A stretch of DNA of 64,000 bases. Source: a virus. The DNA lies in IMG/VR virus record IMGVR_UViG_3300032213_001373, positions 38,328-102,327 of that record. One strand, given 5' to 3'. A program made the position numbers and the translations under genes. Below the pieces are notes generated by a model, which had not been told where the DNA came from, did no database searches, and saw only the letters and a list, made by a program, of their open reading frames with translations. This document shows, piece after piece, positions 32,605 through 45,164 of the stretch (position 1 is the first letter of the stretch; the number at the start of each line of letters is the position of its first letter).

Positions 32605-34481
32605 GATGAGCTCGCCGCCTTCTTAATTCCAGCTACATACTTTGTCTGCTTTTCAGAGAATGCCTTTTGTACTTCGTCACTAGTCTCACTAATAACTGGG
32701 TAACGAATCATGGTAACGTCTACTGTGCTGAACATAGGGACCATAAGCTCATTAAAGATTACGTGGTTGACTGATACCGAAGCTACAGAACCTTTGTATC
32801 TAAGGTTGTTATGGATCTTAAGCCATACAGGTGTTCCAGTGATGTAACCAAAGTCAGATGTCTCCGCTGGTTTTCCTGAAACTGTATATGTTAACAACGT
32901 ATTGTTGCTAGGTTTAGGGTCTCCATTTAAAACTCTGTATAGGAACTCGATGTCGTACTCTGTTCCTCTATTTAAGATGCCTTGAATTTCTTCTTCTCTA
33001 AGCTCTCTAGGATAGTTTTTACCGTAAGTTCCTGGCCTGCCCTTCATACCAGCAAGCTCAGTCATATCAGGCATTCTATTTAAGTAGAGAGTGAACCCTA
33101 CTGAAACGTTTCCACCAATATAGTTAGCTGGATCTTTATCGGCTAACATCCAGTCAATAGATGTATCCATAGCTGTACTATAGGAAATGGTAGTAGGGTT
33201 GTAGTTAAATCTAAAACCCCAAGGCTTGTCGGCATTTCCAGGACCATTTAATGCGGTAGCTGAAGCTCTGTCTTGAAAAATCATTCCAAGTCTTCCAGCT
33301 TTTGTTACCTCAGAGTTTAAAAGATCGATCTTGTCATAGGCAATAATGTACTGAGAAGAGGCTCTTGGCTTACCCAGGTCTTTTTGTATATTGTCTTTTA
33401 CCTTATTAAAGAAGCTTACATCTCTTGATACGTAATGGTTTGGTGGGTTAGTACGTGTAGTTTGATCTATATCAACTGGCTTAGATCCTGCAAATGGAGA
33501 TGGTTCAGTAGAGCCATTATCTACAGGTGCGCCACACGTGCTTGTTTTAATAGCAAGCAAAGCATTAATCGCATCTTGTTTACTATCTCTTTTATCTGAA
33601 CCTTTAAAGTCTTTATTAACGTTAGCTGGATTATCTAGGTTAAGATCAAAGCCAATAAACTGATCAGGACCCAAAGCTCCTAAACCAGCAACTAAGTTTT
33701 CTGCGGTATTAGCCCCAGTAAAAGTAGATTGTATTCCGTCTAAAGACCAGCGTCGTAAGTTATAGTTAGTAAGCAAAGGATTAATATCTGCAGACCTAAC
33801 TACAGCAACCCATTGGTTTGGTGTGCTGCACTTATCTAAAGTAATGTAGCTTTTATTCCAAGCAGCATCTAAGACTTGTTTAGGGATTGTAGGATCCATA
33901 CGAGCTCCTGTCCATTTTACGACAGGGATGTTCTCTGCAGGCAGTACTTCTAGATCTACTGCGCCTGGATTCTCATCTGAATACGCTTTAAGTTTTACAT
34001 AGATTCTAGGGGTTACGGTTACGTTTGCTTTTTTGGCAAGCAAATTAAAGTAAAAGATTTCTTTTGATTCCTGGTTAGAACCATCAACATAGTATGGAAA
34101 CTTAGAGGCAGTGTTTTTAACAAACACTCTTTGACTTCCAGAACTAGTTTGAACTATATCGCCAATACTTACTTGGTTTGCAACTTCGGTTCTCCAAGAC
34201 TGTAACAATAGGACTTGAACCCCATCACCGTCATACAGTGGTTGAGCAGGGTTAGCAATGCTAGGCTCTAAATAGTTAGAGCCTACTTTTTTCTTTTTCC
34301 ACACACGAATTGCATAGCGAACTTCATAGTCTTTATAGACAGCCTTAGAGTCTGAGTTAATTAACACATAGTCTTTTGTATCAGAACCCTTTTGAGTCTT
34401 GACCTGTTCGTAGGCATCGATAGTCCAAAAGTATTCAGATCCCGCATCTTGGGTACCAGATATGTTCTTATAGTTTGTCAT
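32601..34481 (-). CDS. tail/baseplate structural protein
   Basis: 626 residues. The N-terminal third has RVWKKKKVGSNYLEPSIANP and many beta segments; the C-terminal part contains WGFRFNYNPTTISYSTAMD and YPRELREEEIQGILNRGTEY, resembling tube/hub-adaptor proteins with the FxFNPT element seen in contractile tail adaptors. It shares TAATG with the tape measure. A tube-initiator or hub-adaptor role is inferred from order and that element; the family is not certain. Confidence 0.6.
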   Translation of the reverse strand: MTNYKNISGTQDAGSEYFWTIDAYEQVKTQKGSDTKDYVLINSDSKAVYKDYEVRYAIRVWKKKKVGSNYLEPSIANPAQPLYDGDGVQVLLLQSWRTEVANQVSIGDIVQTSSGSQRVFVKNTASKFPYYVDGSNQESKEIFYFNLLAKKANVTVTPRIYVKLKAYSDENPGAVDLEVLPAENIPVVKWTGARMDPTIPKQVLDAAWNKSYITLDKCSTPNQWVAVVRSADINPLLTNYNLRRWSLDGIQSTFTGANTAENLVAGLGALGPDQFIGFDLNLDNPANVNKDFKGSDKRDSKQDAINALLAIKTSTCGAPVDNGSTEPSPFAGSKPVDIDQTTRTNPPNHYVSRDVSFFNKVKDNIQKDLGKPRASSQYIIAYDKIDLLNSEVTKAGRLGMIFQDRASATALNGPGNADKPWGFRFNYNPTTISYSTAMDTSIDWMLADKDPANYIGGNVSVGFTLYLNRMPDMTELAGMKGRPGTYGKNYPRELREEEIQGILNRGTEYDIEFLYRVLNGDPKPSNNTLLTYTVSGKPAETSDFGYITGTPVWLKIHNNLRYKGSVASVSVNHVIFNELMVPMFSTVDVTMIRYPVISETSDEVQKAFSEKQTKYVAGIKKAASSS

Positions 34482-37480
34482 TAGTTACCTCCAATACCCT
34501 TGATCTTAAGCTCATTGTTAATGGCACTTCTTAGTTCGCTTGCTACACGTTGTACCTCAAATGTACCTAGCTTAGCTACGCTTACGTTCATATCTACCTT
34601 AACATTAATGTTAGATGTGGCGTGTACAGAACCTCCGCCAGCTCTTCCCATAGCTTGAGGCATGTTGTTTACAGTTTCCATAGCCATGCCTGGATTGTCT
34701 CCACCTATACCTGCAGATCTAGCTGCGGTATTAGCATCATCTAGGAACTTAGTAAAGGAACCGTTAGTAAATGCAGCCCATTGCTTCCACCAAGTTCCCT
34801 TATTAGAAACCTCAAAAGCAGCGGCAGCATTCTTTTTAGCGTTGAATAGCTCTTTATTGTTTGATATTCCAAATTGCTTACGACGGTTTCTACCCATATT
34901 TGGTGACGCAGGGTCATCGTCTTTCATATTGATTTGGAATAGACCATATGATAGGTCTCTGTTTTTTCCGTTAAATGCGTTTGCCCTACCACCTGACTCA
35001 GCAAGCGCTACAGCAAAAGCTGTCTCTAGCCCCTTACCTCTAAAGCCTGCACTGTGAAGCATACGAATCAAACCTTCGCGGTTACCTCCAGCCATACCTA
35101 CGGTGTCACCCGACACTTTATCTATACGGTTATTAATGTAAACATCACCATTGCTGCCTTTAACACCTCTGCTAATTGCGCTCTGTGGGAATTCATTTTT
35201 GAATGATGCAAAGTCAATAGGTCCACCAGACATCAACGCATTACTCAAAGATTCACTTAGAGGGATACTGCTAAGTACTGATGCAGAAGATCCTCTAAAG
35301 TTTAGACCTGCGCCAGGAGTTACACGAGCATTCTTGCTAGGAGCATCGTCGCCAATACCGATAGCCCTACCAACAGACTTAAATAGGTTGGACACAGTGC
35401 TGATAAGTCGACCGAACCAACCCTTAGGGTTTTCACGTCCTTGTGCTCCAGGACCACCATTATCACGTACTTCAAAGTGGAGGTGAGGGCCGGTAGATGT
35501 TCCTGCTCCAGGGGATCCCTTCTTACCACCAGACTTACCAATCATTTCTCCAGCGCTAACACGTTGGCCCACCTTAACTAGGATCTTAGATAAGTGACCG
35601 TACAGTGTTGATTTCTTTCCATGCTTAATAATAATATAATTTCCGTATTGACGATGTAGACCGGCGTGAGTAACAATACCGTTTGCCGCAGCAACAATCT
35701 TTGTTCCAACAGCTACGCCGTAGTCGATGCCTCGGTGGTTGCTAGAAATTTGTGGGTTCTTTGAATTGTCTCGAGGACCAAAGTTAGATGTAACAGGGGT
35801 ACCAGCAGGTACAGGCATCTGAAGAGCCATGCCCTTTGTGTCTTGATTTCCTCCAGAAAACCCTTGCTGTGGACTTACAGCATTAGACATTCCTGGGTTA
35901 TCCCCACCTTGTCCACATGCGTGGCTTCCAATATTTCCGTGGCTACATCCGTCTCCACCTCGGCCATATGGGTTTGTTGCAGCACCTAGTGTGCCAGCAA
36001 CACCTCCGATAATTGCTCCGGCACCTCCACCGGCAATAGCGCCCGTTGCAATACCTTGCCCCATATCAAACATAAAGTTTCCACCGGTACGTAGCCATGA
36101 TGGAACGTTTGACTTATTTAAAAATCCTTGTAGCTTCTCCATGCCAAAATAAGCACCAGCCGCTAGTGCTCCTCTACCAAGAAGTTTTCCAGCTCCCTTT
36201 AATCCGCCGCCCTTACTCATAAGTCCACCTAAGAAGCCAGGACCTTTTACACCGCCACCAGGACCACGAGTAAGTACGCTGTGCATCATTTTAAGTTGAA
36301 GCAAATCCATACCAAGCCCTGCAGCGCCACCAGCTCCGCCAGCAATCATTGCGCCAGTATTACCTGCACCAGGTAACGTTTGCATAACGCCACGTAGTCC
36401 AGCAAATGCTTGAGTTAGTAAGTCTGCCTGTTCTGCAAGAGAACTAAAACCGTTGTTTACTGCAGCTGTTGTATTGAGCGCAGTGTTGTACCCACCTACT
36501 AATCCTTTTTCAGTGGCTTGAAGTTTACGAGCTTCGCTAGTGTTGTAGTTAAAGTTGGCACGTAGAGGGCTTTCTTTACCAACACCTAGAAGGTCTAAAG
36601 ACTTTTGTGCGTTTCCTAGATCACCCTTCTTAAGAGGGCTTCCACTTCTTGCACGAGCAATAACACCCATCTGGATGATATTCATAAGATTTGGATCGCC
36701 ACCAGCAATAGCAGAGATGGTTGCGTAACCCTTTGATCCTGGGTTCAAAACCATTGCGGCTTGCTCTGGAGTTACTTTTCTTCCACCGTACAAGAATTTA
36801 TAAGTATCGTTAATAATCTGATTAGGTGGTTTTAAGTTTCCTGAAGAATCACGAGCCTGCACACCTATTCGCAAGAAACGCATAGCATTGACGCCTGCAA
36901 GTCCGGCAGCAACTTGTTCGTTGCTAGAGCCAGTGATGGCGCTTAATCCACCAACCTGTGGCATAACGTTCTTAAATGTTTGACTTGTAGCTGTGTATCC
37001 GCCACCATACATAAGTGACATGGTCGCCATGGTTGGACCCATAGCACTGGTAGCTCCGTTACCTACAGCTCTGTTAGAACGTAGGATAGCTTGACGGGCA
37101 TTTATTCCGCTAATGCCTGCTACAGCGTCAGCAGCAAGACGTTGGGTTACGGCGGCGCCAGTATTTGGCATCATTCCCATGCCAATACCGGCAGCAACCA
37201 CTCCACCCATTGCTACCTTTTGACCAGTACTAAAGCCTGCAAACTGATCACGGAACCTAGGCATTTCGCCCATACCGAGCTTAGAGGTGCCCTTTCCAGT
37301 AGCACCCATCATGTTCTTGTAAATCTCAGCAGTTAAGTCTGCAATTTCTTTCATTAACTTTGCAGTCAGACCAAGGCCTGCATTACCGTTAATTATTTTA
37401 AACATCTTTTCGGTATCAGAAGTAGCCCCTGCTAGGATGTTGTCATCCTGTGAGGGGAATAGGCTTTCGTATCCTGCCAC
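34481..37480 (-). CDS. tape measure protein with M23 peptidase and lytic transglycosylase-like domains
   Basis: 999 residues from GTG 37480, which overlaps the stop of the frameshifted ORF upstream. Residues 70-540 are Gly/Ala-rich helical tape with several hydrophobic stretches. About 555-680 is a LytM/M23 endopeptidase (HRGIDYG, GNYIIIKHGKKSTLYGHLSK, GPHLHFEVRDNGG), and about 795-920 is a lysozyme-like (SLT) domain (LETAFAVALAESGGRANAFN, SYGLFQINM). The protein would span the tail and locally digest peptidoglycan while injecting DNA. The two hydrolases together suit a thick Gram-positive wall. Confidence 0.85.
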   Translation of the reverse strand: MAGYESLFPSQDDNILAGATSDTEKMFKIINGNAGLGLTAKLMKEIADLTAEIYKNMMGATGKGTSKLGMGEMPRFRDQFAGFSTGQKVAMGGVVAAGIGMGMMPNTGAAVTQRLAADAVAGISGINARQAILRSNRAVGNGATSAMGPTMATMSLMYGGGYTATSQTFKNVMPQVGGLSAITGSSNEQVAAGLAGVNAMRFLRIGVQARDSSGNLKPPNQIINDTYKFLYGGRKVTPEQAAMVLNPGSKGYATISAIAGGDPNLMNIIQMGVIARARSGSPLKKGDLGNAQKSLDLLGVGKESPLRANFNYNTSEARKLQATEKGLVGGYNTALNTTAAVNNGFSSLAEQADLLTQAFAGLRGVMQTLPGAGNTGAMIAGGAGGAAGLGMDLLQLKMMHSVLTRGPGGGVKGPGFLGGLMSKGGGLKGAGKLLGRGALAAGAYFGMEKLQGFLNKSNVPSWLRTGGNFMFDMGQGIATGAIAGGGAGAIIGGVAGTLGAATNPYGRGGDGCSHGNIGSHACGQGGDNPGMSNAVSPQQGFSGGNQDTKGMALQMPVPAGTPVTSNFGPRDNSKNPQISSNHRGIDYGVAVGTKIVAAANGIVTHAGLHRQYGNYIIIKHGKKSTLYGHLSKILVKVGQRVSAGEMIGKSGGKKGSPGAGTSTGPHLHFEVRDNGGPGAQGRENPKGWFGRLISTVSNLFKSVGRAIGIGDDAPSKNARVTPGAGLNFRGSSASVLSSIPLSESLSNALMSGGPIDFASFKNEFPQSAISRGVKGSNGDVYINNRIDKVSGDTVGMAGGNREGLIRMLHSAGFRGKGLETAFAVALAESGGRANAFNGKNRDLSYGLFQINMKDDDPASPNMGRNRRKQFGISNNKELFNAKKNAAAAFEVSNKGTWWKQWAAFTNGSFTKFLDDANTAARSAGIGGDNPGMAMETVNNMPQAMGRAGGGSVHATSNINVKVDMNVSVAKLGTFEVQRVASELRSAINNELKIKGIGGN

Positions 37481-37638
37481 TACTTCACCGTCCTTGGTCT
37501 ACTCATTGCTCTGTCTAACCAAATCATTCGTTCTCTTACGCTTAAACTTTTCAACTCAGTCAGCGACCATCCTGGGTAGTACTGAGACAGGAGATCAATA
37601 GTCTGAATTAAAAGGTCATAACTTATCTCATGATTGAA
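37480..37638 (-). CDS. +1 frame extension of the gp26-like protein (frameshift product)
   Basis: 52 codons plus stop, read in the +1 frame relative to the gp26-like gene: FNHEISYDLLIQTIDLLSQY, YPGWSLTELKSLSVRERMIW and LDRAMSRPRTVK. No ATG, GTG or TTG initiates this frame before a stop upstream (TAG), yet it is clearly protein-like and fills the whole gap up to the tape measure, whose GTG overlaps its TAG. The gp26-like gene ends TTG TTT CAA TCA TGA; slippage of tRNA-Phe from TTT to TTC would join LADLF to NHEISYDLL. Such overlap ORFs before the tape measure are typical of tail assembly chaperones, although -1 shifts are commoner. Not proven. Confidence 0.55.
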   Translation of the reverse strand, partial: FNHEISYDLLIQTIDLLSQYYPGWSLTELKSLSVRERMIWLDRAMSRPRTVK

Positions 37639-38446
37639 ACAAGTCCGCTAACGTTAGCGGTAGCGGTACCTCCCGCCCGCAATTTGGACACTCTTTTTTG
37701 ATTGAGCTAAGTTGTGGTCCAGGGTTGCGTTCTGATATGGCATTAAGAATTGTTCTGCGATCCTTTACGCTGAGCTTAAGTACAGCGTTAGGGTCAAGCA
37801 CAGACTGACCGTTAATCTCAAGAACACAGCTCTTTAATACGATGGAGTCCAATTCTGGAGCTGTTTTATTACCTGAATTAACGAGTTGCTTTTGTGTGTT
37901 ACCTGTTGGTAAATGTACCTTTACGGAACCAATATTACAAGCAACATCAAAAGCTGAAGAACCTTCTAGTTTCTTCATCTCTACATCTTTATCTAAGTCA
38001 ATAGTTAAAGTCATGTCGTCAGGGCATTCTTCGCAGAACGCTCCCTGAACTGTTACATCTGGCCCAAACGTTTGCTTGCGGATTGCCAAAAGCAATAGCT
38101 CTCGGTCTCCAGCTAGCAAAGCATCAAGGATGTCTTTGTCTGGTTTCTTATCTCCTAGCTTAGTTACGGCTCTTTCTAAGATAAGCATTAAGCCCTTAGA
38201 TAGATCGTTAACTCTTGCTACAGCTTCTTCGTCAGCTCCGTTGAGCTCCCGCACTTCAGCTGTAGAGATGAAGTCTCCAAACGGTTCTTGAAAACCAGCT
38301 AGTAGCTCAACATGCGGATCAGAAGGAGGCGTAATCTTTGTTTCTGAAAACGCCTCCTCCCGACCAGCTTGAGCTACTGCTTGCGCCGATAGTTGATTTG
38401 CAAGGGCAGGATTATCTACTGCGCTTACTGTCGTATTAGTTGTCAT
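37628..38446 (-). CDS. T4 gp26-like baseplate/tail assembly protein with two zinc knuckles
   Basis: 272 residues. FISTAEVRELNGADEEAVAR near the start is the LTGxDEE-type segment of the T4 baseplate hub protein family, DALLAGDRELLLLAIRKQTF is the central conserved part, and FCEECPDDMTLTIDL with a later ECPNCGREVPLPLTLADLFQ supplies two Cys pairs. Members form the hub or act as tail assembly proteins. It lies between the tube gene and the tape measure, the normal location for assembly chaperones, and its 3' end overlaps an open +1 frame (37480-37638). Confidence 0.7.
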   Translation of the reverse strand: MTTNTTVSAVDNPALANQLSAQAVAQAGREEAFSETKITPPSDPHVELLAGFQEPFGDFISTAEVRELNGADEEAVARVNDLSKGLMLILERAVTKLGDKKPDKDILDALLAGDRELLLLAIRKQTFGPDVTVQGAFCEECPDDMTLTIDLDKDVEMKKLEGSSAFDVACNIGSVKVHLPTGNTQKQLVNSGNKTAPELDSIVLKSCVLEINGQSVLDPNAVLKLSVKDRRTILNAISERNPGPQLSSIKKECPNCGREVPLPLTLADLFQS

Positions 38447-38458
38447 TTAGGTTCCTTA

Positions 38459-39079
38459 TTAGAGTGATAGGTCTGCTGCTGTTTTGGAGTAGTCTGTAGC
38501 AAATGAAACGTCAAAACCTTCATGTACAAGAGTCATCTCTTCTACCATGAGGGTGTTTCCGCCTGCATCAAGGTTGCTGTATCCAATGTTTGTAATCCAA
38601 GCATTATATACCTTGAACTTGATAGAGGCGTGTTGGTCACCTGCGTACCCTACTGTGTTACCACCCGCTGCTCCTAGAGCCTTTGGGTTTGGGTGGCTAA
38701 GTACTGAGATCTCAAGATCGCAGCGGAAGTCTGCACCAACACCTGATTGAGCTGTACCAGTAGACATAGCGAATAGACGCTTCATCCACAGTGAGTGCTC
38801 TTTCTGTCCAAGAGAGATACCCTTAGATAGAGTGATTGGTGTAAACGAGCTTTGTCCTGGAAGCTGGTGGAAGTTAGTATTGTATCCACCTTCACGATAA
38901 GCAATTGATTCTGTAGCCACAGTCAAGCCAGATACAGATACAAAGCCCATCTTTCCAAATTTGTCTCCCCATTTTTTATCGTCTGTCTTAGGGGCAAACT
39001 CAACTAGGAACTTAAAGTTACGGACTTGGTCCGTAGCAATAGTACTTAGTCTATTAGTTACGATTGTGTCATCGGCCAT
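38459..39079 (-). CDS. tail tube protein (gp19-like)
   Basis: 206 residues. FKFLVEFAPKTDDKKWGDKF, GFVSVSGLTVATESIAYREG and LPGQSSFTPITLSKGISLGQ match phage T4-like/Phi812-like tube proteins, with VYNAWITNIGYSNLDAGGN and EEMTLVHEGFDV in the C-terminal half. It stacks as hexameric rings inside the sheath. AAGGAG precedes the ATG, with a gap of 14 bases to the sheath stop. Confidence 0.9.
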   Translation of the reverse strand: MADDTIVTNRLSTIATDQVRNFKFLVEFAPKTDDKKWGDKFGKMGFVSVSGLTVATESIAYREGGYNTNFHQLPGQSSFTPITLSKGISLGQKEHSLWMKRLFAMSTGTAQSGVGADFRCDLEISVLSHPNPKALGAAGGNTVGYAGDQHASIKFKVYNAWITNIGYSNLDAGGNTLMVEEMTLVHEGFDVSFATDYSKTAADLSL

Positions 39080-39093
39080 GATTATCTATCTCC

Positions 39094-40632
39094 TTACGCT
39101 GATGCGCTACCGGTTAGTTGGCTGAGCTTGATGACGATGAACTCTGCAGGGTACTGCAAAGCCACACCGACTTCGAGGTTTACTCGGCCATTTTGGATAT
39201 CTGAAAACGAAGTAGTTGTAGAGTCTACCTTCACATAGAATGCTTGTGAAGCAGATGTTCCACGAAGACCACCTTGTTGCCAGTAACTTAGAAGGAAAGA
39301 ACCAAGAGCTGTGTTGAGGCGCTTCCAGAGACCTGGATCGTTGTTCTCAAACAAAGCAAACTGACTGCGGTTTTCTAGTTCTTTCTTAATGTAAATCAAA
39401 GAACGCTGAATATTGATATAACGTTCGTTTGAAGTATTGCGAAGAGTACGGCCACCCATAACCACAATGCCTGCACCAGGGATCTGGCGGATAGCATTGA
39501 TTGGACGTGGGTTGTCGTTTAGGTCATCAAGCTCAGCATTTGTTAGAAGCTTTTCAGTAGCTACAACATTTGCTAGAGAGTTTGTAAGACCTGCTGGAGT
39601 CTTGAAGACACCTCGTGATGCATCAGTTGCTAAGAACTGACCCACCATTGCAGCGCCTGGAGCTTGAAGACGTGTAGCTCCACCAGAAGCACGAAGTGAA
39701 TCTGGAATAAGAGTCCATGGATAGTACGCTGCTGCAACACCACCGTCAGAATCTGGAGCTGCTGTAATAACGTCTGTTATGAAGGTTTGAGCTTCATTAA
39801 CAGTCAATCCACGAGGTACGTCTACAATTGCAAACGCATCTCCACGAAGCTGAGCATAGTTAATCACATCTCCTTGAATATTAACTGCAAGGGTGCGATC
39901 GTTGGTGTTTCCACTAGGTGCATAGATATATGCAGCTGCTGGAACGTTAAACACTAGTGGGTTTTGAATTGCATCAAAAGTAACTAGTGAATCTGAGTAC
40001 TGTGTACGTGTAGGTGTTGATCCATTAACGCCACCGCTGAGAGCCTTTAGGCCATCAACTTCTGGGCGATCATCTGGAGCAACAGATGCTGAGTTCTGAT
40101 CTGCAACACGGATATATGTTGAGCTAGCATTGATTACTGAAACCACATAGCGTGGGTCTGTAGTAACCATGCTTAGATCTGTGTACTGTTCTACAACAGT
40201 TCCAGTTACATATACAAGCAGTGCGAATCGATCATCAGTTCCTGCAGCTTTTACTTCAACAGCAATGTTGTTACCCCATGCGCCAGCATTTTCTGCTTCA
40301 ACACGAAGGGTGTTTAGTGATGCCTGAGAACGGTCAGTAAGAACGATCGAGGCCTTTGCTGATCCTGTGCCAAGTACACGCTTTACGTATAGTTGACGAC
40401 CGCCATTAGCAAAAAAGTTATAGGCAGCCCAGGTTGTTGGGTATGCATCATTCAATCCGCCAAAGGTCTTTGAGAATTCTGACCATGAGCTAAGTAACGC
40501 TGGAACAGTTGATGGGCCCTTTTCTAGAGCGCCAACAAAAGCACCAATTGCACTTCCGTTATCGCCAAGAGCGATTGACTGAGGCAAAGCTACTTCTTGA
40601 ATGAATACGCCAGGTCTACTGTATGTAGTCAT
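39094..40632 (-). CDS. tail sheath protein
   Basis: 512 residues. MTTYSRPGVFIQEVALPQSI with GDNGSAIGAFVGALEKGPST and WAAYNFFANGGRQLYVKRVL are sheath N-terminal motifs; the C-terminal part includes YINIQRSLIYIKKELENRSQ, LWKRLNTALGSFLLSYWQQG and VEVALQYPAEFIVIKL-like residues. It makes the contractile sheath, showing that the phage is myovirus-like. AAGGAG precedes the start. Confidence 0.95.
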   Translation of the reverse strand: MTTYSRPGVFIQEVALPQSIALGDNGSAIGAFVGALEKGPSTVPALLSSWSEFSKTFGGLNDAYPTTWAAYNFFANGGRQLYVKRVLGTGSAKASIVLTDRSQASLNTLRVEAENAGAWGNNIAVEVKAAGTDDRFALLVYVTGTVVEQYTDLSMVTTDPRYVVSVINASSTYIRVADQNSASVAPDDRPEVDGLKALSGGVNGSTPTRTQYSDSLVTFDAIQNPLVFNVPAAAYIYAPSGNTNDRTLAVNIQGDVINYAQLRGDAFAIVDVPRGLTVNEAQTFITDVITAAPDSDGGVAAAYYPWTLIPDSLRASGGATRLQAPGAAMVGQFLATDASRGVFKTPAGLTNSLANVVATEKLLTNAELDDLNDNPRPINAIRQIPGAGIVVMGGRTLRNTSNERYINIQRSLIYIKKELENRSQFALFENNDPGLWKRLNTALGSFLLSYWQQGGLRGTSASQAFYVKVDSTTTSFSDIQNGRVNLEVGVALQYPAEFIVIKLSQLTGSASA

Positions 40633-41862: not shown

Positions 41863-42132
41863 TTACTTCTTTTTATGCTCTCGTTTGTCTTCGGCCTTTT
41901 CGCCCTTCTTGCCTTCCTTGGCTTCGTGGCGCTTTTCGACCTTCTTGATGGCTTTCTTCTTTAGCTTCTCGTCAATCTTACGATCGGCTGTCTGGGACTC
42001 TGGCTTATTACGCTTGCCGTGAGCCTTATCCATCTTTTCAAACTCTTTCTTTTCAGCAGGGCTCATACCCTTGGTAGTCTTGGCATCCTGCTTCTTGTCG
42101 TTCTTTTCGTTATAAGGCTTTTTCTTAGCCAT
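41863..42132 (-). CDS. highly charged Lys-rich protein
   Basis: 89 residues, about a third Lys, starting MAKKKPYNEKNDKKQDAKTT and rich in KK and EKK blocks with no hydrophobic core; probably disordered. The start shares TAATG with the small Cys-rich gene upstream. Basic disordered proteins like this are sometimes packaged with phage DNA or bind nucleic acid. It is the last gene before a terminator. Not recognised. Confidence 0.55.
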   Translation of the reverse strand: MAKKKPYNEKNDKKQDAKTTKGMSPAEKKEFEKMDKAHGKRNKPESQTADRKIDEKLKKKAIKKVEKRHEAKEGKKGEKAEDKREHKKK

Positions 42133-43394: not shown

Positions 43395-45164
43395 CTATAT
43401 AGTGGCCAAGAAGTTGTCGGTTGTAGACCCTTGGTTTCCCGTGGAAGGTCCCTTAATTATACCCACAGATGTTCCCCTAATAGGGCTGGAGGGCGTAAGG
43501 CTTAGGGTAGAACCTACTTGAGACCCGGTCAAGTTAGACCCTGAATACGCTGAAGAAGTTATAGTGCTTCCTACGGTTGTTACGTATACAGATCCGACTG
43601 TAGCAAAGCCTGAAGTATTAGTAGCCAAGTTTAAACTAGAGGCTACAGCAACAGTTCCAGACACAGAGCTAACCAATACAAGGTCGCTAGTATAGGTAGT
43701 CACGCTTCTAGTAGAGGTAAAGCAAGAGTATGTGGTGCGGTTTCTAGTTGCTGTAAAGCAAGAATAGAAAGTAGGTTGTACTACCTGAGACGTAAAGCAG
43801 CTGTAGGTAATTGGATTATTAACTGAGCGGGTAGAGGTATAGCAGCTGTAGGTAATAGGGTTATTGACTAAACGGGTAGAGGTGTAGCAGCTATATGTAA
43901 TAGGGTTAGGTACGTTGCGAGTAGAGGTGTAGCAATAATATTGAGTGTAGGTAAAAGGAACAGTCGTAGTGCTACAAGACCAAGATCCCGCTGTAGTAGT
44001 TGTTGTTGCACAGTAGGTAAAGTTAGCCCCAGCGGTGGTTCCGTTACAGGTTTTTTGTTGAACTTCACTACCAGTACAATAACCACTAAATAAGCTAATA
44101 AGTCTACAACTTGTAGTTGTAGATCCTGGACTTTGAGTAGGAATTTCACAGCATCCTGAAAGATCCCAAATATTAGCTGCGGTTCTTACACCTCCGGAAC
44201 AATAGCTAGAGTTTACAGTCTCTGAGAACTCTCCCGCACAAGAACCTGCTGGACAACCAAAACCCATGGTATCTACACGGCCTTGGTCGCAAACAGCAGT
44301 GCTACCGCCTCCGCCTTGGCTAACTCCAGAACAACACTGGTTTGATGGTGGGTTGCTAGAGCTAGTTACTTGACTCTGGTCGCAAACATTGCTTTGACCG
44401 CCGCCGCCTTGGCTAACACCAGAGCAGCATTGGTTTGATGGAGGGTTACTAGTACTTGTTACTTGGCCTTGGTCGCAAACAGTGCTGGTGCCACCACCGC
44501 CTTGGGTAACTCCAGAACAGCATTGATTTGAAGGAGGGTTGCTTGTACTTGTTACTTGGTTTCCTGTACAGGCTGTGCCGCCTCCGCTTGATGTTACTCC
44601 AGAACAGCAGTTGGATGCGGGAGGGTTGTTTTGGTTTGTTATAGGCGTTTGATCACAGACAGTTACCGAACCTGTAACTACTGGAGAACAACAGTTTCCT
44701 GCCGGAGGATTGTTAAACTCACTTACTAAACCTTGATCACAAAAGGTATTTGTAACAGATGTAAATCGTGGGTAGCTTGCCCACCAAGAACCAGAGTCTG
44801 TAACCCAAAATGCTGGACCCACACCGCCGTTTGCATCTGTCTGTACCTTTACATCAGTATTACCTAGATTAATAGATGCTAAAGGATAGCTAGTTGCAGC
44901 ATCGTCTGATATAGCGCTATTAGATCCGCTAATGCGCCAGTTGCCGCGGGTAGCATTCCAAATTTGACCTGAATCAGCTGTACCTAATCCAAGAGCCGTA
45001 GAGGCTCGGTTAAAAGCGTCTTGTATTTTAGAAGCAAACCATTGTTGCCATACGCCACCAACTTTAACGTAGCCAGAAGTAGCGGTCTTCCATTGACCGC
45101 CAACTTTTACAGAAAGACTAGTAATAGTCTTCCAGGCACCATTAACTTTGGATTGACCAGGCAT
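43395..45164 (-). CDS. Cys-rich tandem-repeat structural protein
   Basis: 589 residues. N-terminal repeats KVGGQWKTATSGYVKVGGVW, then a beta domain (about 40-145), then about five degenerate 30-residue repeats of the form VCDQGQVTSTSNPPSNQCC followed by SGV and a Gly run (residues about 150-290), then a Cys-rich stretch and five or six repeats of ITYSCYTSTR(x)VNNP (about 400-480). The C-terminal part is Ser/Thr/Val beta strands. Cys are paired and spaced as in extracellular disulfide or metal-bound repeats. It may be a fibre or surface-decoration protein. No known family was recognised. Confidence 0.65.
   Translation of the reverse strand: MPGQSKVNGAWKTITSLSVKVGGQWKTATSGYVKVGGVWQQWFASKIQDAFNRASTALGLGTADSGQIWNATRGNWRISGSNSAISDDAATSYPLASINLGNTDVKVQTDANGGVGPAFWVTDSGSWWASYPRFTSVTNTFCDQGLVSEFNNPPAGNCCSPVVTGSVTVCDQTPITNQNNPPASNCCSGVTSSGGGTACTGNQVTSTSNPPSNQCCSGVTQGGGGTSTVCDQGQVTSTSNPPSNQCCSGVSQGGGGQSNVCDQSQVTSSSNPPSNQCCSGVSQGGGGSTAVCDQGRVDTMGFGCPAGSCAGEFSETVNSSYCSGGVRTAANIWDLSGCCEIPTQSPGSTTTSCRLISLFSGYCTGSEVQQKTCNGTTAGANFTYCATTTTTAGSWSCSTTTVPFTYTQYYCYTSTRNVPNPITYSCYTSTRLVNNPITYSCYTSTRSVNNPITYSCFTSQVVQPTFYSCFTATRNRTTYSCFTSTRSVTTYTSDLVLVSSVSGTVAVASSLNLATNTSGFATVGSVYVTTVGSTITSSAYSGSNLTGSQVGSTLSLTPSSPIRGTSVGIIKGPSTGNQGSTTDNFLATI

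Follow-up and report, generated by a model that had tools for sequence, protein, structure and literature searches.

A probable programmed +1 frameshift links a gp26/gp51-like gene to a start-less second frame in contractile-tailed phages

The window analyzed here is a 64-kb stretch of the 102,327-bp uncultivated virus record IMGVR_UViG_3300032213_001373, and all coordinates are positions in this window. On its minus strand, a gene of the T4 gp26/gp51 family is followed by a short overlapping reading frame that lies just before the tape measure gene. Our comparison of this locus with its relatives suggests that the two frames are joined by a programmed +1 frameshift, which would make a tail assembly chaperone pair of the G/G-T type in a contractile-tailed phage. 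We place the probability of this reading at roughly 0.92. It is supported by three features that were apparent from the comparison, namely an invariant slip site, a conserved second frame without a start codon and a conserved element 5' of the slip site.

The zero-frame open reading frame (ORF; 37631..38446, minus strand, or 38446-37628 with its stop) encodes 272 amino acids, the proposed G-type chaperone, and ends with ...GCG GAC TTG TTT CAA TCA TGA, the TGA lying at 37628..37630. The C-terminus of the protein is a CxxC zinc-ribbon-like end, ...CPNCGREVPLPLTLADLFQS. A previous sequence-only reading of this stretch proposed that a 52-codon reading in the +1 frame bridges this TGA and the tape measure start, and such a frame is indeed present (37483..37638, minus strand). 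It translates from TTC at 37638 as FNHEISYDLLIQTIDLLSQYYPGWSLTELKSLSVRERMIWLDRAMSRPRTVK and closes at a TAG (37480..37482) that overlaps the tape measure GTG. The in-frame TAG upstream (37648..37650, within TTA GCG) and the missing start codon, both of which had been described, were also found in the sequence; the first ATG, GTG or TTG of the +1 frame appears no earlier than about codon 28. Since the upstream TAG shuts the +1 frame, any shift is confined to the last six sense codons, GCG GAC TTG TTT CAA TCA. In this short overlap the only workable re-pairing is the one that had been suggested, a slip of tRNA-Phe from UUU to UUC at TTT (37637..37639, in TTG TTT CAA).

This slip site was invariant across relatives. 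TTT followed by C or T was present in all 131 distinct loci, as TTT C in 123 and TTT T in 8. In a slip-blind survey, viral contigs were scanned for the +1 domain alone, so that loci were not picked by their site. This survey gave 124 distinct places, one of which had no upstream gene, and in all 123 others the zero frame had a TTT plus C or T close to its stop. A profile search raised the viral loci to 80, and all that were readable had TTT plus C or T zero to three codons before the stop, with the +1 frame running on for 42-76 codons. Five phages of Streptomyces (33-36% identity) showed the same layout, CTG TTT C(GC/AG) GAA CTC TRA, and a +1 shift is also required in SP-15, LIS04, GXN1 and Mel-JY01 (TTT TTT C, TTT TTT A, TTC TTT C and TTT TTT T, respectively). 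The Phe codon was TTT in 32 of 32 clusters, for which log10 P was -10.6 under each locus's own Phe usage if the clusters are taken as independent. On average, TTT accounted for 58% of Phe codons in the same genomes, and for only 3-7% in phages of 59-64% GC; among control ORFs, TTT-Y occurred in the last four codons in 1 of 230.

The codons on either side of TTT varied. The preceding codon was mostly TTG, with CTC, CTA and ATC at other loci, and the following codon was CGN in 100 of the 131 loci, CAR in 23 (CAA in the window) and a stop in 8. P-site re-pairing from UUU to UUY was the sole slip compatible with every locus, and where TTT is followed directly by TAA, TAG or TGA, the +1 codon is again UUU. 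The UUU_C sequence with P-site re-pairing to UUC is shared with the UUU_CGN class of +1 sites, while the A-site CGN of that class is replaced by CAA in the window. The slip site acts like the UUU_CGN class, but is broader. Overall, a programmed +1 frameshift is as strongly backed as comparison alone permits.

The second frame had been judged protein-like, and this view was borne out well beyond chance, as the frame was kept in every close relative found. Pooled pN/pS (nonsynonymous to synonymous polymorphism ratio) was 0.22 over 54 disjoint pairs, and each of the 53 informative pairs fell below 1, indicating purifying selection; in viral contigs at ~94% identity, the frame was kept and the changes were mostly silent. 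The absence of such conservation had been named among the findings that would count against a frameshift, and it was clearly not what we observed. The encoded domain, which would form the T part of a G-T fusion, carries the conserved motif Y...L...Y..L...YPGW[ST]L.E[IL]+.LS.RER..WL, and no ATG, GTG or TTG is available ahead of it in 119 of the 131 loci. The family therefore has the conserved, start-less, overlapping second frame with a conserved slip site that is characteristic of G/G-T pairs. Fusion of the two frames in some relatives, a possibility raised in the sequence-only reading, was seen in none of the 131 loci.

AlphaFold2 (AF2) predicted the T domain as a confident three-helix mini-domain (predicted local distance difference test, pLDDT, 85.5). 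Profile-profile comparison with hhalign related it to DUF6760 of Streptomyces contractile injection systems (probability 91%, E 1.1e-6) and more distantly to P2 E' (probability 50%, P 1.7e-4). At the level of single sequences, only 3 of 41 members matched DUF6760 (PF20546) at E<0.1, the best at 0.011, which is below the curated cut-off, so that the T domain appears to be a relative of DUF6760 rather than a member. Phage_P2_GpE (PF06528) was the most recurrent Pfam family among T-domain members, although below its cut-off, with 7 of 41 at E<0.1 and a best value of 1.9e-4. A fold search with the 52-amino-acid T domain gave no match at E < 0.001, NCBIfam gave none for either of the window's two readings, and a search of solved structures by sequence likewise gave none.

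The third feature, a 5' element overlooked in the sequence-only reading, reaches ~35 nt upstream of the slip site and lies partly beyond the interval of 37480-37650 that had been proposed. In the window (minus strand), it consists of an internal Shine-Dalgarno (SD)-like GGAGGT (37668..37673), 28 nt before TTT, and a perfect hairpin, CCGCTA-ACGT-TAGCGG (37645..37660), with its 3' edge 5 nt before TTT. This near-perfect SD sequence was found upstream of TTT in 92 of the 131 loci, 89 of which have it at exactly 28 nt, and a contig of Streptomyces sp. CBMA29 with the junction CTT TTT CTC TGA likewise has GGAGGT 28 nt upstream. The codon preceding GAG GT has G as its third base in 93 of 105 cases, though it may encode Q, S, T, A, R or another residue. 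Between GGAGGT and the slip site, hairpins occur in three pairing registers with the same 3' edge (CCGCTA/TAGCGG, CTGCCA/TGGCAG and GTTCCGA/TCGGAGC), and the 3' arm is always at -11 to -6 (or -5), ending 4-5 nt before TTT. Relative to synonymous recodings with the phages' own codon usage, hairpin stability had a mean z of -3.7 with a peak only at this place (p<=0.05 in 39 of 58 representatives), and a complete stem was present in 61% of 97 distinct sequences as compared to 3.5% of recodings (42% and 0.7%, respectively, for Watson-Crick pairs only), although kinship among the sequences inflates these figures.

A hairpin beside the slip site was previously found to stimulate +1 shifting in yeast (PMC3639245), and an upstream hairpin stimulated +1 shifting on 70S ribosomes in vitro (PMC6321510). 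Consistent with these reports, the hairpin, perhaps with the SD sequence brought closer by it, probably drives the ribosome forward. A downstream stimulatory structure was considered and rejected, since windows covering 6-56 nt and 9-69 nt beyond the slip site were no more stable than control stretches and a window of 6-96 nt was only slightly lower (-1.19 vs -0.69). An SD sequence at the prfB spacing was also rejected, being weak at -15/-12 (energy about -3, z about -1). The full prfB-like arrangement, in which UGA fills the A site and an SD sequence precedes the slip codon by ~3 nt, does not apply here, with GGAGGT at 28 nt in 89 loci and an A-site stop in 8 of 131.

From these observations we infer the occurrence and efficiency of shifting in cells, a stimulatory part for the 5' element and the action of the products as chaperones. 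Most ribosomes would read the gp26-like protein (G) as far as the TGA. In a minority, peptidyl-tRNA-Phe would occupy the P site at UUU with the following zero-frame codon (CAA in the window and CGN, CAR or a stop in its relatives) still to be decoded, and the GGAGGU and hairpin just upstream would push the ribosome forward. The tRNA-Phe would then re-pair with UUC one base ahead, and 51 further codons would be translated to give G-T, with the junction reading ...LTLADLF-NHEISYDLL... in the window; the +1 junction peptide expected in phage BRock is YDQVTAACHACEGEVPVPLNVGILFANSNYK. The T part would be a small domain of three helices with a distant likeness to P2 gpE' and DUF6760. As in lambda, G and G-T may coat the tape measure protein, recruit tail tube subunits and then leave.

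The setting of the locus fits a tail assembly chaperone role, and so does the second frame through its distant likeness to P2 E' and DUF6760. The order of genes on the minus strand is tail sheath, tail tube, gp26/gp51-like protein and tape measure, so that the two frames lie between a tube gene of the T4 gp19 family (38459..39079; PF06841, E 7.8e-23), which is the upstream neighbor of the gp26/gp51-like ORF, and the tape measure gene (34481..37480, 999 amino acids, GTG start at 37480), the position expected of a G/G-T pair. The sheath gene (39094..40632) matched PHROG tail sheath at E 7e-44. The gp26-like identity of the zero-frame protein was confirmed by PF12322 (T4_baseplate), which it matched at 33.2 bits with a curated cut-off of 24.5, and which also includes T4 gp26 and gp51; its PHROG match was baseplate hub. 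For an AF2 model of the G part (pLDDT 83), the BFVD matches were T4-like hub assembly proteins from viruses (E 2.7e-20) and a protein of SP-15 (3.8e-12).

Several observations weigh against the frameshift as we propose it. Kinship of the loci makes significance figures that assume independent clusters optimistic. The sequence TTT CAA recurs at codon 51 of the gp26/gp51-like ORF, and therefore those bases alone would be insufficient for shifting. A rare A-site codon was rejected as the cause of the shift, as CAA, CAG and CGT are not rare in these phages. The hairpin is missing in some lineages that retain the slip site (e.g. L106, L107 and L123). In addition, Phage_P2_GpE (PF06528) reached 18.4 bits with a curated cut-off of 23. 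When the G-part model was compared to the PDB, the HK97 tail assembly chaperone 2ob9 ranked first and second of 350,542 chains at E 0.19, which is not significant alone, and this best fold match, though it points toward a chaperone, is a hint only.

We also considered whether the second frame might be a separate small protein, made from a non-canonical start or through re-initiation coupled to the TGA, as at the GTGA overlap of extracellular contractile injection systems (eCIS). A T-like protein does appear to be separately started in eCIS clusters and, at TAATG, in one huge phage, and GenBank annotators placed downstream starts in BRock, LuckySocke, Alone3 and GiJojo. However, the lack of a start codon in 119 of the 131 loci means that separate initiation fails to explain the pattern; near-cognate codons are likewise kept at no position, the downstream starts would remove the conserved first helix, and the invariance of TTT-Y would have no explanation. 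We therefore regard this possibility as very improbable. Marginally less probable still is a shift of -2, which would reach the same frame and is known in phage Mu (PMC5009743). It would place tRNA-Phe on UGU, UCU, UAU or similar, depending on the preceding codon, with poor pairing, whereas the observed constraint falls on the base after TTT, as a +1 shift predicts. That the two frames reflect a sequencing error or a decayed gene had nothing in its favor and is refuted by conservation in relatives, since the same break occurs in more than 100 independently assembled contigs and in genomes of cultured phages, with the second frame under purifying selection.

A narrower question is whether GGAGGT and the hairpin are by-products of a conserved protein sequence (EVPLPLTLADLF) rather than a stimulator, with the slip site acting alone. 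The region codes for a zinc-ribbon-like tail that is conserved, Glu-Val is encoded in part by the SD motif, some lineages have lost the hairpin and keep the slip site, and an SD sequence at 28 nt lies outside the spacings known to affect frameshifting. In contrast, synonymous recodings gave far weaker hairpins, with complete stems 17-fold commoner in the natural sequences; three pairing registers retain one 3' edge; and G is preferred before GAG GT despite the varying residue. On balance, the by-product explanation seems unlikely, though it is a much more serious contender than the alternatives above, and a stimulatory 5' element together with +1 re-pairing at UUU remains our preferred reading.

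The most consequential part of this analysis is a possible connection to T4. Both T4 gp26 (208 amino acids) and gp51 (249 amino acids) belong to PF12322 (E 9e-64 and 4e-52). The domain spans gp26, and in gp51 ~48 C-terminal residues lie outside it, with a consensus of roughly FY.INH.LVK..YSL..IM.M.P.ER...L.EKD among the T4-like phages compared. Comparison of this extension to the T domain gave an hhalign P of 7.6e-4 (probability 25%) and a common pattern, SLxxIxxM.P.ER...L, which is suggestive of T4 having one paralogous gene for G and another for G-T. Conservation of frameshifted tail chaperones is widespread among long-tailed phages, T4 being listed as the exception (PMC5009743), and a two-gene form of the pair was proposed for phage 0305phi8-36 (PMC2147016). 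Tentatively, and at odds that we set somewhat below even, the G/G-T chaperones of contractile machines may descend from one module of a PF12322-like protein and a T domain that is expressed in three ways: by a +1 shift with an upstream SD-hairpin in the gp26/gp51-like family, as two paralogs in T4 (gp26 as G, gp51 as G-T), and as a separate coupled gene in eCIS (zinc-ribbon protein and DUF6760). If true, this descent would supply the missing tail chaperone pair of T4, and the family would be a natural example in which an upstream hairpin drives +1 shifting on bacterial ribosomes.

A search of open-access literature gave no earlier description of a frameshift in the gp26/gp51-like family. The G/G-T chaperone and the UUU-C +1 site are already known in kind. 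New within the literature searched is the combination of a gp26-family partner, a relaxed A site and an upstream SD-hairpin, as is the testable link to T4 gp26/gp51. Now that a frameshifted pair appears to draw its G partner from the family of T4 gp26 and gp51, the question of the T4 chaperones becomes directly testable. An invariant site in more than 100 contigs of viruses and in bacterial phages grown in culture would add a large bacterial-virus family to the few eukaryotic and archaeal viruses with UUU-Y +1 shifting. The papers that we located studied the upstream hairpin in constructs into which it had been inserted or engineered, and here it appears to be natural and conserved, with its own set of evolutionary variants.

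In public genomes, these chaperone genes are misannotated or lack annotation. The records of BRock, LuckySocke, Alone3 and GiJojo (L006 3842-4024, L007 3818-3973, L008 3818-3973 and L010 3788-3985) give the T domain as a hypothetical protein of its own whose start lies too far downstream, and that of pSt2308 (L009 3757-4015) leaves it unannotated. In several actinophage myoviruses (L088, L089, L090, L093 and L094), the chaperone pair is annotated without the implied -1 shift (e.g. Chidiebere, C CCT TTG), while GMA6 has its -1 shift annotated. Elsewhere in the window, the tape measure protein (34481-37480) has an M23 peptidase domain plus a lysozyme-like (SLT_3) domain. A 589-amino-acid protein (43395-45164) with repeat periods of 45 and 93 bp and cysteine-rich units of the NPPSNQCCSGV type is probably a repetitive virion-associated protein, and an 89-amino-acid ORF amid the structural genes (41863-42132) is extremely rich in lysine and glutamate. 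No phage-encoded tRNAs were found within the 64-kb window.

The arrangement proposed here resembles lambda G/G-T and P2 E/E+E' in having two ORFs between the tail tube and tape measure genes. It differs from both in that the shift is +1 rather than -1, a single P-site tRNA slips at UUU-Y and the conserved element is upstream; moreover, the G part belongs to the T4 gp26/gp51 family, unlike P2 E. T4 gp26 and gp51, of the same PF12322 family, differ by being two genes with no frameshift, and the likeness of the gp51 extension is suggestive only. Actinophages with a different first protein that lacks PF12322 (GMA6, Cantare, Chidiebere, Colucci and Bumble) use -1 shifting, several at C CCT TTR, and +1 shifting is thus not general among actinophage myoviruses. 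In Streptomyces eCIS, the order is sheath, zinc-ribbon protein and DUF6760, the last of which looks homologous to the T domain, although in the cluster examined it appears to be separately started at a GTGA overlap (stop at 1483, GTG at 1480). The zinc-ribbon protein and DUF6760 of eCIS-like clusters in Streptomyces genomes (L226-L233) are probably counterparts of G and T, and in the huge uncultured phage LR756511 (L236), the small protein encoded after a PF12322-like gene is apparently started at a TAATG overlap with no frameshift.

The sequence-only reading regarded a +1 event as unusual, which holds for bacterial phages, although +1 shifting in tail chaperones was already suggested for haloarchaeal myoviruses (TTT-CGC in the HF1 group, PMC7230728; HSTV-2, PMC5009743). 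We confirmed the sites in the sequences of HSTV-2 (TCC TTT CGC) and HF2 (AAG TTT CGC), where, as here, a +1 shift would lead into a second chaperone frame. These viruses have archaeal hosts, the first chaperone of HSTV-2 has no Pfam match, and the gp26/gp51-like family differs from them in that its A site may also hold CAR or a stop codon and in that it carries the SD-hairpin element. The UUU_CGN sites of eukaryotic viruses, such as amalgaviruses and influenza PA-X, in which a UUU_CGU +1 shift is known (PMC3498833), share the UUU_C P-site slip and an A site that is mostly CGN, as in the 100 of 131 loci here; the present family differs by bacterial ribosomes, the additional use of CAR and stop codons, the upstream element and an E site that is mostly UUG rather than UCC. 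Similarly, at the CUUUGA site of prfB (release factor 2), a P-site tRNA slips one base forward with an SD-like element upstream, and 8 of our loci parallel it with a stop directly in the A site (UUU UGA, UAA or UAG). In contrast to prfB, the SD sequence here is 28 nt away with a hairpin between rather than ~3 nt away, the A site mostly holds a sense codon, and autoregulation of the release factor 2 kind is not expected.

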